DNA from: Muribaculaceae bacterium
GTDB taxonomy: Bacteria > Bacteroidota > Bacteroidia > Bacteroidales > Muribaculaceae
Assembly: GCA_023664185.1 (NCBI GenBank)
Contig: JAMPGA010000003.1
Coordinates: 62,001 to 126,000, forward strand
Direction of reading: 5' to 3'
DNA: 64,000 nucleotides
The notes under the pieces were generated by a model. The model did no database searches and was not told where the DNA came from. It was given only the letters and a program-made list of their open reading frames with translations. Positions 11,961-36,804 of the stretch are shown here, piece after piece. The position numbers and the translations under genes are program-made. Positions within the stretch are counted from its first letter, which is position 1. Every line of letters begins with the position of its first letter.

Positions 11961-12324
11961 TTAGAGTGTGTCTAATAAAGGATGTTAACGTGTAGGGCGG
12001 CCAATCTTTAGACGATTTTTGCCTAACGATAAGGAAGTATGGCCGTAGCCACATGACCGCAGAGTTAGGCAAAAAGCTGCAAAGAGTGGCCGAGCCGATG
12101 TAACTTTCGTTAATTCACACTCGTTAAAACAATATTTCATAGATAACAAAAGTCTTATGAGGCTAAATGACGCGGAAAGGAAGAATGATTTGACTTCATG
12201 GTATGGATGTCTTTATCGCTTTGTTTCAGTCGTGTACATCCAGTCCACCCCTGAAACTGCATCGATAAATACATCTCATAACATGAACCCTACGCGTTAA
12301 CACCCATTATTAGACACACTCTTA
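11961..12324. repeat. Long inverted-repeat element, type D (364 bp)
   Basis: The terminal arms are about 37 bp with few mismatches: left TTAGAGTGTGTCTAATAA... to GTAGGG (11961-11997), right CCCTACGCGTTAACACCC... to CTCTTAA (12288-12324). The interior contains further inverted repeats: TTTTTGCCTAAC with GTTAGGCAAAAA, GTTTCAG with CTGAAAC, and GATGTCTTTATCG with CGATAAATACATC. No long reading frame is present. The arms share the skeleton TTAGAG-n2-TGTC-n2-ATAA and GTTAACG with copies A, B and C, and the core shares GTGGCCGAG with B and GTCGTGTACATC with the reverse strand of C, so it looks like a larger relative. The element fills almost the whole gap between rpmA and the methyltransferase gene, ending 9 nt before that ATG. 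Confidence 0.8.
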
Positions 12325-17910: not shown

Positions 17911-18082
17911 TTAGAGCCTGTCCCATAATATATGTTAACGCCGAGGTCGCATATCTCGGAGGGATTTTGGAGGTGGCGTGAGGGAGCAATGCTGTGGTAT
18001 TGTGGCCGAGCGCCAGCGCCAAAAGCACTCGAGAGATGCGAGATAGCCTCAGCGTTAACATATATTATGGGACAGGCTCTTA
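17911..18082. repeat. Inverted-repeat element, copy B (172 bp)
   Basis: Left arm TTAGAGCCTGTCCCATAA... (17911-17941) and right arm ...TTATGGGACAGGCTCTTA (18052-18082) are perfect or near-perfect complements about 31 bp long. The core continues the palindrome: GAGGTCGCATATCTCG against CGAGAGATGCGAGATAGCCTC, TTTTGGAGGTGGCG against CGCCAGCGCCAAAA, and CAAT with ATTG at the tip. The whole element can thus fold as one nested hairpin. It has exactly the same length as copy C but a different core. No gene of its own. It lies between ftsE and the NADH dehydrogenase gene. Confidence 0.88.
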
Positions 18083-31925: not shown

Positions 31926-32894
31926 ATGAAGCAGCAGGTGAGTATTCTTGCCGCACGCATAGGAGCAGCACTCCGTTCCCGACGTGGAAAGAATGTGCTG
32001 CTCTATCTGCTTTTTCTGGCGGTGGCTTTCGTGTTCTGGATATTTATGTCGCTCGACACTGAGCGCCAGCGCGACTTCGAACTGCCACTCGAACTGCAGG
32101 AAGTGCCCGACAGTGTGACGCTGATCGGCCAGATGCCTCAGACCCTGGCCGTGAGCGTAAAAGGCAAGGACTCACAGCTGCTCAGATACTCGTGGGGCAA
32201 ACAATCCACCATAAAATTTAAATGGAACGAGAATGCAAGCGACGACATTCTCCTCATAAGCCACACTCGCCTGGAGACAAGGCTACGCGACTACTTTGGA
32301 GCCAATGTACAGATAGCCTCTTTCCGCCCCGACTCAATTCGCATCAGCTACACCACCCAGCCCGGCGTAAAAGTGTCGCTCAACATCCAGGCCGACATAC
32401 ATCCCAATTTGCAATATATCGTCTCAGGTCCCATCAAGGCCAATGTCGATTCAGTCACCCTTTACTCAGCCACCGATATCCCCCACTCTCTCCGAATGGT
32501 GTCGACAGAGCCTCTGGTAAAATCAGGGCTTAAAGACACGGCCAGGTTTGAGGTAAAGGTAAAACCCATAGACGGCATCAGGATTATACCCGACAAGGTC
32601 ACCGTGACCGTGCCGATCGAGCCGCTCATCTCTCGCAAACGCGCAGTGCGAATCGAGACATTCAATGTGCCCGATGGAAAGTCGCTTGTCACATTCCCCT
32701 CCATGATCGAAGTGTCATATCTGGTGCCCATGAGCTCTTACAACGACGATTATCCCATAAAAGCTTTTGTCGACTACAACGACACACGCCTCCCGGGCAA
32801 CAAAATCCCCGTGAGCCTGTCGGCAATACCGTCGTTATACCGCAATGTGTCGAAGAGCATTGACAATGTGGAGTATATAATTGAAAATGAGTAA
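31926..32894 (+). CDS. YbbR-like (CdaR-type) domain protein
   Basis: 322 aa. One N-terminal TM helix (about residues 24-42, L-L-Y-L-L-F-L-A-V-A-F-V-F-W-I-F) is followed by a long beta-rich extracytoplasmic part. It holds two to three YbbR units, recognisable by L-P-L-E-L-Q-E-V-P-D-S-V near residue 55 and V-S-G-P-I-K-A-N-V-D-S-V-T-L near 160. In Firmicutes such proteins (CdaR) regulate the c-di-AMP cyclase; no cyclase gene is adjacent. The gene is a fixed member of the yajC-coaE cluster in this phylum. Its stop overlaps the coaE start (ATGAGTAA), so translation is coupled. Confidence 0.85.
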   Translation: MKQQVSILAARIGAALRSRRGKNVLLYLLFLAVAFVFWIFMSLDTERQRDFELPLELQEVPDSVTLIGQMPQTLAVSVKGKDSQLLRYSWGKQSTIKFKWNENASDDILLISHTRLETRLRDYFGANVQIASFRPDSIRISYTTQPGVKVSLNIQADIHPNLQYIVSGPIKANVDSVTLYSATDIPHSLRMVSTEPLVKSGLKDTARFEVKVKPIDGIRIIPDKVTVTVPIEPLISRKRAVRIETFNVPDGKSLVTFPSMIEVSYLVPMSSYNDDYPIKAFVDYNDTRLPGNKIPVSLSAIPSLYRNVSKSIDNVEYIIENE

Positions 32895-33504
32895 GTGCGT
32901 CACAGCCGTTTGCGGCGGCATAGGGAGCGGTAAGAGTGTGGTATGCAACGTGCTCCGCACCATGGGTTATCCTGTCTACGACTGCGACTCTGAAGCGCGC
33001 TCTATCATGGACGCTGACGAGTGCATACTTGACGAGATAGCACGTCAGATCAGCCCGGAGTGTGTCACTGAAGGCATTATAGACCGGCGCAGATTATCGG
33101 AAATTGTCTTTGCCAATGCCGACAAACTCACTATCCTTAACTCCATTGTTCACTCGGCAGTGAAACGCCATCTCTCGGAGTGGATAACACGCCAGGAAGC
33201 CGACCGTGTATTCGTGGAGACTGCCATTCTCTATCAGAGCGGACTTGACAGGATGGTCGATGAAGTCTGGGAGGTCGTAGCTCCAAAGGATGTAAGAATA
33301 GGCAGGGTGATGCTGCGCAACGGCCTTACAGAATCGCAAGTCGAGGCTCGCATACAATCGCAGGACTCCTTCAGACCTGATAAAGTGCACGGCAATGTCC
33401 ACATAATAACCAACGACGGCACACACCCACTACTTCCCAGAGTTGAAAAGCTTCTTAGAGCCTGTCCCATAATATATGTTAACGCTCAGGCGGTCAGCCA
33501 TTGA
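32887..33504 (+). CDS. coaE: Dephospho-CoA kinase, C terminus supplied by a repeat
   Basis: 205 aa from the ATG at 32887, which overlaps the YbbR stop; a TTG six bases upstream is less likely. P-loop kinase: C-G-G-I-G-S-G-K-S (Walker A, about residues 8-16), Y-D-C-D-S-E-A-R (the D-x-D/A-R substrate motif), V-H-S-A-V-K-R-H-L, V-E-T-A-I-L-Y-Q-S-G, and R-I-Q-S-Q-D-S-F-R. It catalyses the last step of CoA synthesis. The final residues (R-A-C-P-I-I-Y-V-N-A-Q-A-V-S-H) and the stop are read from repeat copy C, so the ancestral C terminus was probably replaced; all catalytic motifs lie upstream of the junction. Confidence 0.93.
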   Translation: MSKCVTAVCGGIGSGKSVVCNVLRTMGYPVYDCDSEARSIMDADECILDEIARQISPECVTEGIIDRRRLSEIVFANADKLTILNSIVHSAVKRHLSEWITRQEADRVFVETAILYQSGLDRMVDEVWEVVAPKDVRIGRVMLRNGLTESQVEARIQSQDSFRPDKVHGNVHIITNDGTHPLLPRVEKLLRACPIIYVNAQAVSH

Positions 33505-33626
33505 GCAACTTTGTTCGTGTGATGAGGAAGTGTACATGATGTACACGACCGAAGAACACGGACAAAGATACCAACGGATGGCCGAGGCGACCTCAGCGTT
33601 GACATATATTATGGGACAGGCTCTTA
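33455..33626. repeat. Inverted-repeat element, copy C (172 bp)
   Basis: The arms TTAGAGCCTGTCCCATAA... (33455-33485) and ...ATTATGGGACAGGCTCTTA (33596-33626) match those of copy B almost base for base. The core differs from B but is again palindromic: CTTTGTTCGTGT against ACACGGACAAAG, with GTGTACAT and ATGTACAC at the tip. The length equals that of B. It separates convergent coaE and the ClC gene and is read as the 3' end of both. Confidence 0.9.
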
Positions 33627-34951
33627 CCCACAAGAACTGTGCCATATGAGAATCCGGCGGCCAGCATAACGGGAAATGTCATCCCGTAATATCCCGTCAT
33701 CTCAATCACTATGAAAATAGCCATCAGTGGGGCATGGATCACACCGGCCATGACACCAGCCATAGCGCTTACAGCAAAATTGTTGACAGGCAGTCCAAGC
33801 CCGCAGAGGTCGTTGAAGCCACCTGCAAAAAACATTCCAGCCATACATCCGGCAAATAGTGTAGGAGCGAAATCTCCCGCCACACCACCTCCGCTATTCG
33901 AGGATATGCAGGCCATCGGCTTTGCCAAAGCCACTCCCAGACAAACCATGACTGCAAGCGTAAGATCGGGAGCTATACCCTGGCGATTGAAAATGCTGTA
34001 ACGTATCAGTGCATCGGTATCGCCGTCGATAATACTGGCCATCGTGGAATACCCTTCGCCATATAATGCGGGAAAAGCAAACAGAAGCACAGCTAAAATG
34101 GCACCGGAGAATAAAGCCGTAAGCCAGCGGTTGCCTATCTTGTTGAAAATGTGTCTGAGAATACGACCTATGTAGGTGTAGTAGAGAGAATAAATGCCAC
34201 ACACTACACCAAGCAACATGATCCATCCGCTCATCTTCGGGTCGAACATCTGCACATGCGTCAATGGCACATCAAGAGTGAATCCGGTGAGAGCATAGCA
34301 GCTCATGCCAGCCACAAGACAAGCCACAATCAGGGCTATCAAAGGCACTGTGGCCATCTCCATACCCATCACCTCAACAGTAAACAACACTCCACCTATT
34401 GGAGCTTTGAAGATAGCGGCTATGCCCGCACCGGCACCACATCCAATCATGATACGCATCAGTCGGGATGGCAGACCGAATCGTCGGGCAAGATAGCTGC
34501 CAAACGATGCTCCAGAAGTGGCTATAGGTCCTTCGGCTCCGGCCGAGCCACCAAACCCCAGAGTGAAGACCGAAGCCACAAGAGGCCCCCATGAAAACAC
34601 TCCTGGAATATGGTAATTGCCTGCCTTCAGCATTCCCTCCACCTTGTCGGTGCCATGCTCAAGATTGCGTCGAGCCACATATTTCTGAAATGCCACGGCA
34701 AGTAGAATTCCCACGACCGGAATCATCAAAAGAGCCCAGTTGGGATGATCGGGCCTCAGATGCCCCACCAGAAACAAAGAAACCCCCTTAATAGCACCCT
34801 TCAGCACAAAGGCTGTAACGCCGAGAAGCATGCCCATTGCTCCGGCCAACGCAAACAGCGAAATGGCCGGAGGAAGTGGCCCAAGCCTCCAATCGTCGGG
34901 AGTCTGGGGCAAGGATGTGTGATGATTTGATGTCGGATCAAGCGTTGCCAT
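33593..34951 (-). CDS. ClC-type chloride channel or H+/Cl- antiporter
   Basis: 452 aa, about 10-12 hydrophobic segments. ClC motifs: G-G-S-A-G-A-E-G-P (about residue 130, with the gating Glu), G-A-G-I-A-A-I-F-K-A-P-I-G-G-V-L-F, and G-G-V-A-G-D-F-A-P-T-L-F (the G-x-F-x-P anion-site loop). No CBS domains. The gating Glu is kept, which allows antiport; channel or antiporter cannot be decided from what I see. The last ten residues (K-S-L-S-H-N-I-C-Q-R) and the stop come from repeat copy C, as with the facing coaE. Monocistronic; a -7-like TAATTTTG lies on the minus strand at 34980-34973, without a good -33 element. Confidence 0.93.
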   Translation of the reverse strand: MATLDPTSNHHTSLPQTPDDWRLGPLPPAISLFALAGAMGMLLGVTAFVLKGAIKGVSLFLVGHLRPDHPNWALLMIPVVGILLAVAFQKYVARRNLEHGTDKVEGMLKAGNYHIPGVFSWGPLVASVFTLGFGGSAGAEGPIATSGASFGSYLARRFGLPSRLMRIMIGCGAGAGIAAIFKAPIGGVLFTVEVMGMEMATVPLIALIVACLVAGMSCYALTGFTLDVPLTHVQMFDPKMSGWIMLLGVVCGIYSLYYTYIGRILRHIFNKIGNRWLTALFSGAILAVLLFAFPALYGEGYSTMASIIDGDTDALIRYSIFNRQGIAPDLTLAVMVCLGVALAKPMACISSNSGGGVAGDFAPTLFAGCMAGMFFAGGFNDLCGLGLPVNNFAVSAMAGVMAGVIHAPLMAIFIVIEMTGYYGMTFPVMLAAGFSYGTVLVGKSLSHNICQR

Positions 34952-35045: not shown

Positions 35046-35110
35046 TAACAGTGGAAACTCAGAAATATAATTCATCACAAACACATACATTAACCTTAAA
35101 CCAATCGAGT

Positions 35111-35797
35111 ATGAAAAAAATCTTTACTCTTCTTACTCTGGCCGCTATGGCCTTCTCAGCTTCGGCTACCGATGTTTATTCATGGAAATCGGACGCCGGC
35201 ACAGTAACTGAAGTTGGCGGAAAAGCCACCCACGAGAACGGCGACCCCTCGAAGGCAAATCGCGTCAACTATGCCAACGCCGACAACTACACCATCTGCC
35301 TCAACGGCAAGAAGGCCGATATGGGCGGTGATCCCAGCGACAACGCAGGCTACATCCAGATAGCCCTTGACCAGCCCCTCGAAGCAGGCTGCACCCTCGA
35401 GCTCGCAGGATACCTCAACAAAGGCGAAGAGAAATCAGCCAATGCCTATGTAGTGTTCCTCGACGCTGCCGGCAACACTCTCTCAGACTTCTCTGAAGAA
35501 GAGAGCTATCCCGACTATGTTCTCAACCCCGAGCAGGTGCCCGGCGTGCACAACATCGCTGCTCCCGAAGGCTGCAAAACCATCCGCATGACTCGCAACC
35601 AGGCTCAGACCAACGTGTTCCTCATCACCGTTAAGGTGACTAAGGAAGGTGGCAACTCAGGCATCGCCGATGTTGTAGCCGCAGAAAACGCTCCTGTTGA
35701 ATACTTCAATCTTCAGGGTGTGCGCGTAGAGAACCCCGCAAACGGCCTCTACATCCGTCGTCAGGGCTCAACCGTCACCAAAGTTATGGTGAAATAA
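35111..35797 (+). CDS. Secreted protein with Por/T9SS-like C-terminal tail (1)
   Basis: 228 aa from the ATG at 35111. The frame is open back to 35003, but the signal peptide MKKIFTLLTLAAMAFSASA begins here. The mature N-terminal part (about 160 aa; D-V-Y-S-W-K-S-D-A-G-T-V-T-E-V-G-G-K-A) is rich in Gly, Asn and Asp, beta-like, and unrecognised. The last 45 residues (from G-I-A-D-V-V, with E-Y-F-N-L-Q-G-V-R-V-E-N-P, G-L-Y-I-R-R-Q-G and K-V-M-V-K) follow the pattern of the Por secretion (T9SS type A) sorting domain, with its Y-(N/D)-L-x-G-x-x-V, G-x-Y-I and final K-V-x-V-K strands. This would export and possibly anchor the protein at the cell surface. The tail is nearly identical to that of the next gene. 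Confidence 0.72.
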   Translation: MKKIFTLLTLAAMAFSASATDVYSWKSDAGTVTEVGGKATHENGDPSKANRVNYANADNYTICLNGKKADMGGDPSDNAGYIQIALDQPLEAGCTLELAGYLNKGEEKSANAYVVFLDAAGNTLSDFSEEESYPDYVLNPEQVPGVHNIAAPEGCKTIRMTRNQAQTNVFLITVKVTKEGGNSGIADVVAAENAPVEYFNLQGVRVENPANGLYIRRQGSTVTKVMVK

Positions 35798-35824
35798 TCA
35801 GAGTAACTTCACAGAACCATCATG

Positions 35825-35856
35825 CTCCGACGCCTACAGGGTGTCGGAGTTTTTTT
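35825..35856 (+). terminator. Intrinsic terminator
   Basis: CTCCGAC and GTCGGAG enclose an 11-nt loop, followed by seven T. Confidence 0.9.
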
Positions 35857-35876
35857 GATAAATTTTAACAAAAAAA

Positions 35877-35907
35877 TTTGTTGTTTATAAAAAAATCAAT
35901 ACCTTTG
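35877..35907 (+). promoter_or_regulatory. Promoter for the second secreted-tail gene
   Basis: TTTG (35877-35880), 19 nt, TACCTTTG (35900-35907). Full consensus; the leader is about 75 nt. Confidence 0.7.
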
Positions 35908-35986
35908 CAAGGGTATTTCGGAAAGGTTATCTAATCTTTCCCTCTTCTAATCTTAAACTATTCACCATTTATCCAAAACAATCTGT

Positions 35987-36778
35987 ATGAAGAAAATTTT
36001 TACTCTTCTTGCTGTTGCCGCACTGGCAGTTTCTGCTAAGGCAGAAGTTAAGACAGTCGATGTGACTGTTACATGGCCCATGGCCAAGGCTGTAGAAACA
36101 GGCGAAACCAACGAGGACGGAACTCCCAAGATAGCCTACGAGATGGATCTCACTCCCGTGGTCACCGAAGGTCTCTCTACCTATCTCACTGTTGGAGAAC
36201 CTACTCTCGGTGCAAATCTCAAATGGGGTACACCCCGTAAGACTCAGGACATGGTCGAAGCTCTTGTTCAGCCCCTTGAGCAGGTAAAAGAGGCCACCGA
36301 TGGTCACTCACTATCATTCAAGCTTGCAGCCAACGCCGGCTACACCTTCGAGCCCACAAGCCTTACATTCCAGGCTAATGTTATTGGTACTAGCGGTGGT
36401 TACTACAACCTCTCATACACCTTCGGTGGTGACCCCGTTACCCTCACAGAGGGCTTCCACCCCAACCGTAACAATGAGGAAAACGGCTACTACAGCAATG
36501 AGTCATATGCTCTCAGCGGAGCTGCTTCTGCCAATCCTCTTGAGGTTACATTCATGATCTACAGCCTTGCTGATAACAAGCAGATGGGCTTTGCCAACGT
36601 TACCATCGCAGGTAAGCTCACCGGCGACATCGACCTCTCAGGCATCGCCGACGTTGTTGCCACAGAGAACGCTCCCGTTGAATACTTCAACCTCCAGGGT
36701 GTGCGCGTAGAGAACCCCGCAAACGGTCTCTACATCCGTCGTCAGGGCGCTACCGTAAGCAAAGTGCTGGTTAAGTAA
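35987..36778 (+). CDS. Secreted protein with Por/T9SS-like C-terminal tail (2)
   Basis: 263 aa with signal peptide MKKIFTLLAVAALAVSAKA. The central region (about residues 20-215: V-K-T-V-D-V-T-V-T-W-P-M, later S-F-K-L-A-A-N-A-G-Y-T-F-E-P-T-S-L-T-F) looks like an all-beta domain, unlike the mature part of its neighbour. The C-terminal 45 residues match those of the gene at 35111 at all but a few positions, and the DNA is nearly identical over the same stretch. This indicates tail duplication or gene conversion onto unrelated bodies. Own promoter and terminator, so expressed separately. Export by T9SS is inference from the tail; no por genes are in the window. Confidence 0.72.
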   Translation: MKKIFTLLAVAALAVSAKAEVKTVDVTVTWPMAKAVETGETNEDGTPKIAYEMDLTPVVTEGLSTYLTVGEPTLGANLKWGTPRKTQDMVEALVQPLEQVKEATDGHSLSFKLAANAGYTFEPTSLTFQANVIGTSGGYYNLSYTFGGDPVTLTEGFHPNRNNEENGYYSNESYALSGAASANPLEVTFMIYSLADNKQMGFANVTIAGKLTGDIDLSGIADVVATENAPVEYFNLQGVRVENPANGLYIRRQGATVSKVLVK

Positions 36779-36804
36779 TCAACTCCCACTAACGAATCTA
36801 CAAG

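Follow-up and report, generated by a model that had tools for sequence, protein, structure and literature searches.

Two convergent genes of a Muribaculaceae bacterium, coaE and a short clc, terminate within one copy of a short repeat, which raises the question of how both proteins came by their present C termini. We addressed it in a stretch of 64,000 nucleotides (hereafter the window), which belongs to contig C9 in a genome of 2.12 Mb and 15 contigs. An earlier note, made from the letters of the window, had proposed that a copy of the repeat (copy C) remodelled both protein ends. The features of the junction are collected in Table 1.

Table 1. Features at the coaE–clc junction, in window coordinates.
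Feature	Position	Strand	Evidence or remark
coaE (dephospho-CoA kinase)	32887..33504	+	205 aa; Pfam PF01121, E 3.6e-37; orthologue alignment
clc (short ClC-type channel/transporter)	33593..34951	-	452 aa; Pfam PF00654 (voltage-gated ClC), E 7.5e-66; orthologue alignment
Copy C, MITE derived from the IS5 family	33458..33623		166 bp; inverted repeats, genome copies, parent IS, target duplication
Left target-site duplication (TSD), TTA	33455..33457		seen in the window; compared with the G022 site
Right TSD, TTA	33624..33626		seen in the window; compared with the G022 site
Left terminal inverted repeat, GAGCCTGTCCCATAATATATGTTAACGCTCAGG	33458..33490	+	source of the CoaE tail
Right terminal inverted repeat	33591..33623	-	31/33 identical to left arm; source of the ClC tail
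Subterminal hairpin, module A, kept from the parent IS	33487..33588	+	covariance model R1, 54.3 bits, E 6e-13
Pre-insertion clc stop codon (CTA on +)	33430..33432	-	joined flanks; no longer reached
Pre-insertion coaE stop codon, TGA	33647..33649	+	joined flanks; no longer reached

One insertion at the ends of coaE and clc

Translation of the two open reading frames gives C termini of ...LLRACPIIYVNAQAVSH for CoaE and ...GKSLSHNICQR for ClC, exactly as the earlier note had written them, and both stop codons indeed lie inside the inverted repeat. The repeat itself, which had been placed at 33440-33640, is present within the narrower bounds of Table 1. CoaE residues 191-205 are derived from the element, with the first base of codon 191 coming from the TSD, while in ClC K443 is retained and residues 444-452 are element-derived. 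The ClC stop TGA (33593-33595) is supplied by the right terminal inverted repeat, in which a T-to-C change has shifted the stop two codons further, adding QR.

The state before the insertion can be read in G022, a different species of the same genus whose proteins are 67% (CoaE) and 82% (ClC) identical to those of the window. Here coaE and clc are convergent, overlap by 48 nt and carry no element. After removal of one TTA, the window flanks read CTTCTTACCCACAAGAACTG and the G022 site reads CTTCTTGCCAACGAGAACTG, both of equal length and identical at 17/20 positions. The rejoined flanks restore an overlap of 51 nt, with CoaE ending ...EKLLTHKNCAI* and ClC ...VGKKLFNSGK*, in parallel to the native G022 tails ...ENLLANENCAI* and ...VGKKILNLE*. 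CoaE thereby exchanged THKNCAI for RACPIIYVNAQAVSH and ClC exchanged KLFNSGK for SLSHNICQR, so that each protein lost 7 terminal residues through one insertion. Because the overlap coded for both genes, a single insertion necessarily changed both proteins; this was one event in an existing overlap and not two independent effects. The earlier description of two coding regions that almost meet within the element is right as to the two end positions, but the element has in fact drawn apart genes that formerly overlapped.

A collapsed or misplaced repeat joining two loci during assembly could in principle mimic this arrangement, and multi-copy repeats do break other assemblies; many contigs of genome G215, for example, end inside the element. 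Nevertheless, we regard such an artefact as highly implausible, given that copy C is just 166 bp long and its arms carry substitutions of their own, that both flanks match one contiguous G022 locus, and that the 3-bp duplication is perfect.

Alignment with orthologues places the end of similarity at the same junctions. In nearly all matches, similarity of CoaE to its relatives ends at residues 190-194, and that of ClC ends at about 436-449. The element-derived CoaE residues 191-205 are matched by the tail of none of the 27 aligned orthologues, and SLSHNICQR is terminal in none of the 25 aligned ClC relatives. Together with the native tails readable in G022, this bears out the proposal that the repeat remodelled both ends, which shared terminal residues in orthologues would have refuted. 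Past the same point, CoaE relatives mostly continue for 0-10 further residues of unrelated sequence, and judging from these alignments the CoaE tail is therefore not conserved. AlphaFold models gave a pLDDT above 90 in the CoaE core and below 60 from about residue 193, and the tail is accordingly predicted to be disordered; in ClC, the last helix runs on into the tail with lower confidence there. Since the lost tails are not conserved and the sequence upstream is intact, both altered proteins probably still work. The earlier note had attributed this tolerance to catalytic motifs lying upstream, which they do, but for ClC it is not the whole account. The short ClC clade, G022 included, lacks the EPYSIYTMRL segment that a long paralogue in the same genome (L222) keeps, and the ClC end had therefore been shortened on this branch before the insertion. 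We also considered whether ClC is a CBS-domain protein truncated by the element, and rejected this, as the long paralogue is a separate gene (C14, L222) and the short clade ends at this point in G022 as well.

A parent insertion sequence and its reduced copies

A 23-nt core of the arm, TGTCCCATAATATATGTTAACGC, recurs in 21 copies in the genome at up to 3 mismatches, compared to 0 for a reversed-pattern control, and its recurrence is thus not due to chance. The copies measure 60-374 bp and have constant ends and variable interiors. In a family survey the arm was found in 23 of 297 genomes, and a GTDB scan located it in Muribaculaceae-type MAGs. A full-length element with the same ends as the short copies is present in genome G003 (L178, G003:C42). 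It spans 1124 bp, is flanked by TAA on both sides and contains an intact ORF for a transposase of about 250 aa, which matches the NCBIfam IS5 family model NF033580 (E 4.4e-52, 177 bits at a cut-off of 110) and DDE_Tnp_1 (PF01609) in Pfam. A TNA target, together with a transposase phylogeny of its own, marks the IS1031 subgroup of IS5, of which these elements may be members. Identical TNA trinucleotides flank 19 of 25 complete elements, and TAA or TTA adjoins 102 of 110 arms from seven genomes.

Copy C corresponds to an internal deletion of this element. Its left part matches the G003 element's right end as far as GGCCGAGGCGA, where it joins the opposite end at CCTCAGCG, and its 166 bp offer no coding capacity for a transposase. 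No transposase of this IS5 family was matched anywhere in the window's own genome (G000), so the copies there look stranded.

Taken together, copy C is almost certainly an IS5-family MITE that inserted at TTA in the coaE/clc overlap and replaced both protein tails. The course of events is as follows. An IS5-family insertion sequence reduced by deletion and no longer autonomous (a MITE), probably moved by a transposase acting in trans from a full element since lost from this genome, inserted at a TTA target within the overlap of the convergent genes, and translation of coaE and of clc now runs into its two arms. The element caps a gene cleanly from either side, because every arm frame after T-N-A soon meets a stop.

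Other copies were noted in passing. Copy A (1905-1973 of the window) is a minimal element of 69 bp made up almost wholly of terminal repeats and bordered by TTA at either end; the right-hand duplication forms the TAA stop of a minus-strand neighbour (150 aa ORF). Copy B (17914-18079) has 166 bp like copy C, with hairpin B (see below) in place of hairpin A, the former matching model R1 at 114.8 bits. A 374-bp copy at L031 2086-2459 (G000:C7, about 1046985-1047358) has both hairpins and a large internal deletion, and is intermediate between the full insertion sequence and the short copies. Repeats of a different kind lie at 35109-36781 of the window, where tandem paralogous genes encode small proteins predicted to be secreted; the repeats concerned, D1 and D3, are 89% and 78% identical.

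Three recurring tails and the preference for gene 3' ends

Read from the TNA target, the arm offers three frames: LEPVP*; KSLSHNIC* (or an immediate TAG); and RACPIIYVNAEAVSH*, which stops after 15 codons. Each of them was found at the end of a further protein in one of two related genomes, G215 and G202. MiaA (L143, G215) terminates in KSLSHNIC, an MscS-like channel (L167, G202) in LEPVP, and a predicted glycosidase-like protein (L169, G215), whose identity was assigned by eye and which has no NCBIfam match, in RACPIIYVNAEAVSH. In other genomes of the same genus, similarity to MiaA breaks off at 282-300, in most cases no later than the junction, which lies at about 295. Copy C is the sole copy found in which one element terminates two genes.

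That one tail is common to CoaE and the glycosidase-like protein, and another to ClC and MiaA, might suggest an exapted tail with a selected protein function, comparable to the in-frame palindromic elements of Rickettsia. We consider this very improbable, as the frame and not the host protein sets the tail, the CoaE tail is predicted to lack order, and the ClC tail has gained two residues by drift. The Rickettsia elements resemble copy C as short palindromes turned protein-coding, but they were reported as in-frame fusions within ORFs, whereas here only C termini are altered (reviewed for in-frame MITE fusions in PMC10969869). In-frame passage of that type was not encountered here; whichever of the three frames is read, a stop follows within the arm or at the hairpin edge.

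A neighbouring gene was called for 99 arms, of which 67 face a 3' end, compared to 39% of comparable TWA sites at the same loci (p 7e-9), and 15 of these 67 lie exactly on the stop codon, where 12% were expected (p 0.01). Both p-values are approximate, because longest ORFs served as gene calls and arms that belong to one element are not independent observations. Insertions on stop codons occurred at L136, L144, L147, L148, L152, L176, L177 and other loci; there, the stop is either the TAA of the duplication or a TAG formed by TA and the first G of the element. We discarded a special targeting of stop codons, given that TAA is itself a TNA site and the excess is modest. Selection against damage explains most of the 3'-end bias, and special targeting is unneeded.

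This bias also bears on a different view of the element, namely as a host-functional repeat (a terminator or REP-like palindrome) that is kept between convergent genes and ends both transcripts, with tail replacement as a by-product. Copies lie at gene 3' ends above the null, copy C contains a strong hairpin, and it separates genes that formerly overlapped. However, selection against promoter damage would yield the same bias, minimal copies of 57-69 bp are devoid of the hairpin, and target duplications together with the parent insertion sequence show transposition. An intrinsic terminator within copy C was likewise dismissed, as no U-run follows the hairpin and no terminator-like site was found. 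On balance, a host function of this kind appears unlikely.

A covarying hairpin inside the terminal repeats

The G003 parent contains a 103-nt hairpin just inside each inverted repeat, and the element interiors hold two imperfect hairpins, A and B. A covariance model of hairpin B also matches hairpin A (copy C 33487-33588, 54 bits), and for this reason the two look homologous. Within the Muribaculaceae the same model has matches in 74 of 149 genomes, spread over 20 of 30 genera, and outside this family in only two genomes of an order-wide sample of 198. Wherever both hairpins were found among the loci read, they point inward at both ends; they start about 30 nt inside the TNA-flanked end, and GGTAAYTT often comes after them. 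The terminal repeats differ between the groups carrying the hairpin. One sibling element in the window (11964-12321, 358 bp) has such different terminal repeats (GAGTGTGTCTAATAA...), is flanked by TTA at 11961-11963 and 12322-12324, carries a hairpin at 11994-12096 that matches model R1 at 57.7 bits, and has an ATG (12335) some 10 nt beyond its end.

Pairing within the hairpin is strongly maintained. Across the best 41 distinct sequences of 78 model hits, in an alignment fitted to the model and hence favouring pairing, 93.5% of cells are paired compared to 34-50% in slid controls, and both partners have changed in 29 of 34 pairs compared to 14-19 in the controls. We refrained from counting over all 78 hits, in which opposite-strand matches create false covariation. 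Taken alone, hairpins A and B show both-side changes in 12/34 and 14/34 pairs, respectively, and the covariation observed in B was reached by 0 of 500 shuffles. Some of the positions with the highest conservation are unpaired: GA-RG-GA in the 5' strand and GA-CY-GA in the 3' strand form two tandem-GA internal loops that are nearly invariant. An excess of G-U over A-C (83 vs 12) is only suggestive as a strand indicator, given the bias from model fitting and the 41 of 83 instances that stem from one invariant column. A protein binding duplex DNA would need neither covarying pairs nor GA mismatches, from which we infer that the folded form matters, be it as RNA or as DNA. Rfam 15 returned no match for the window at the gathering threshold, and a search of four related loci at E up to 1 gave weak sub-threshold matches only and no fitting family; the hairpin is thus without an Rfam family and may already be described in ISfinder.

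A joint reading, to which we would give about an even chance, is that the element belongs to a large Muribaculaceae clade of IS5-type transposons with compound ends (inverted repeat, followed by the 103-nt hairpin with its tandem-GA loops and covarying stems, and last a GGTAAYTT-like box, both sets facing inward). It would be the folded hairpin that acts, whether as RNA, in transcripts that run into the element, or as DNA, extruded and recognised in transposition, and MITEs would bring it to gene 3' ends, where host transcripts may be shaped.

Related elements are known from other bacteria. IS5-family MITEs of Porphyromonas gingivalis, BrickBuilt and MITEPgRS, belong to the same order and resemble the copy C family in being non-autonomous, with terminal repeats of the GAG type that have counterparts in full-length IS5-family elements; they differ in repeat sequence, and a constant TNA duplication is seen in the elements described here (PMC4596501). 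A term search of the same paper returned neither a replacement of gene tails nor a covarying hairpin pair. In Coxiella burnetii, QMITE1 copies reach into functional genes at their C-terminal ends (pntAA by 42 bp, mutT by 26 bp and nagZ by 50 bp) and, although unrelated, supply C termini as copy C does; the relevant section describes no copy ending two genes and no empty overlapping site (PMC5896051). Replacement of a protein tail is hence an ordinary, known kind of event, and the compound hairpin end is more unusual. It is also less usual that two tails were replaced at once by way of an overlap already in place, whose empty site can still be read, that the three tails recur on other proteins, and that the parent family has a structured compound end.

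At the coaE–clc junction, transposition thus edited two proteins in one step. The overlap of the convergent genes allowed this, and the original and the replacement tails are both still readable. More generally, an element that targets TNA and carries stops in every frame may lead an almost harmless life at gene ends. It brings along a hairpin that covaries strongly and is widespread in this family of gut bacteria, and that may have a role in transposition or in transcript control.
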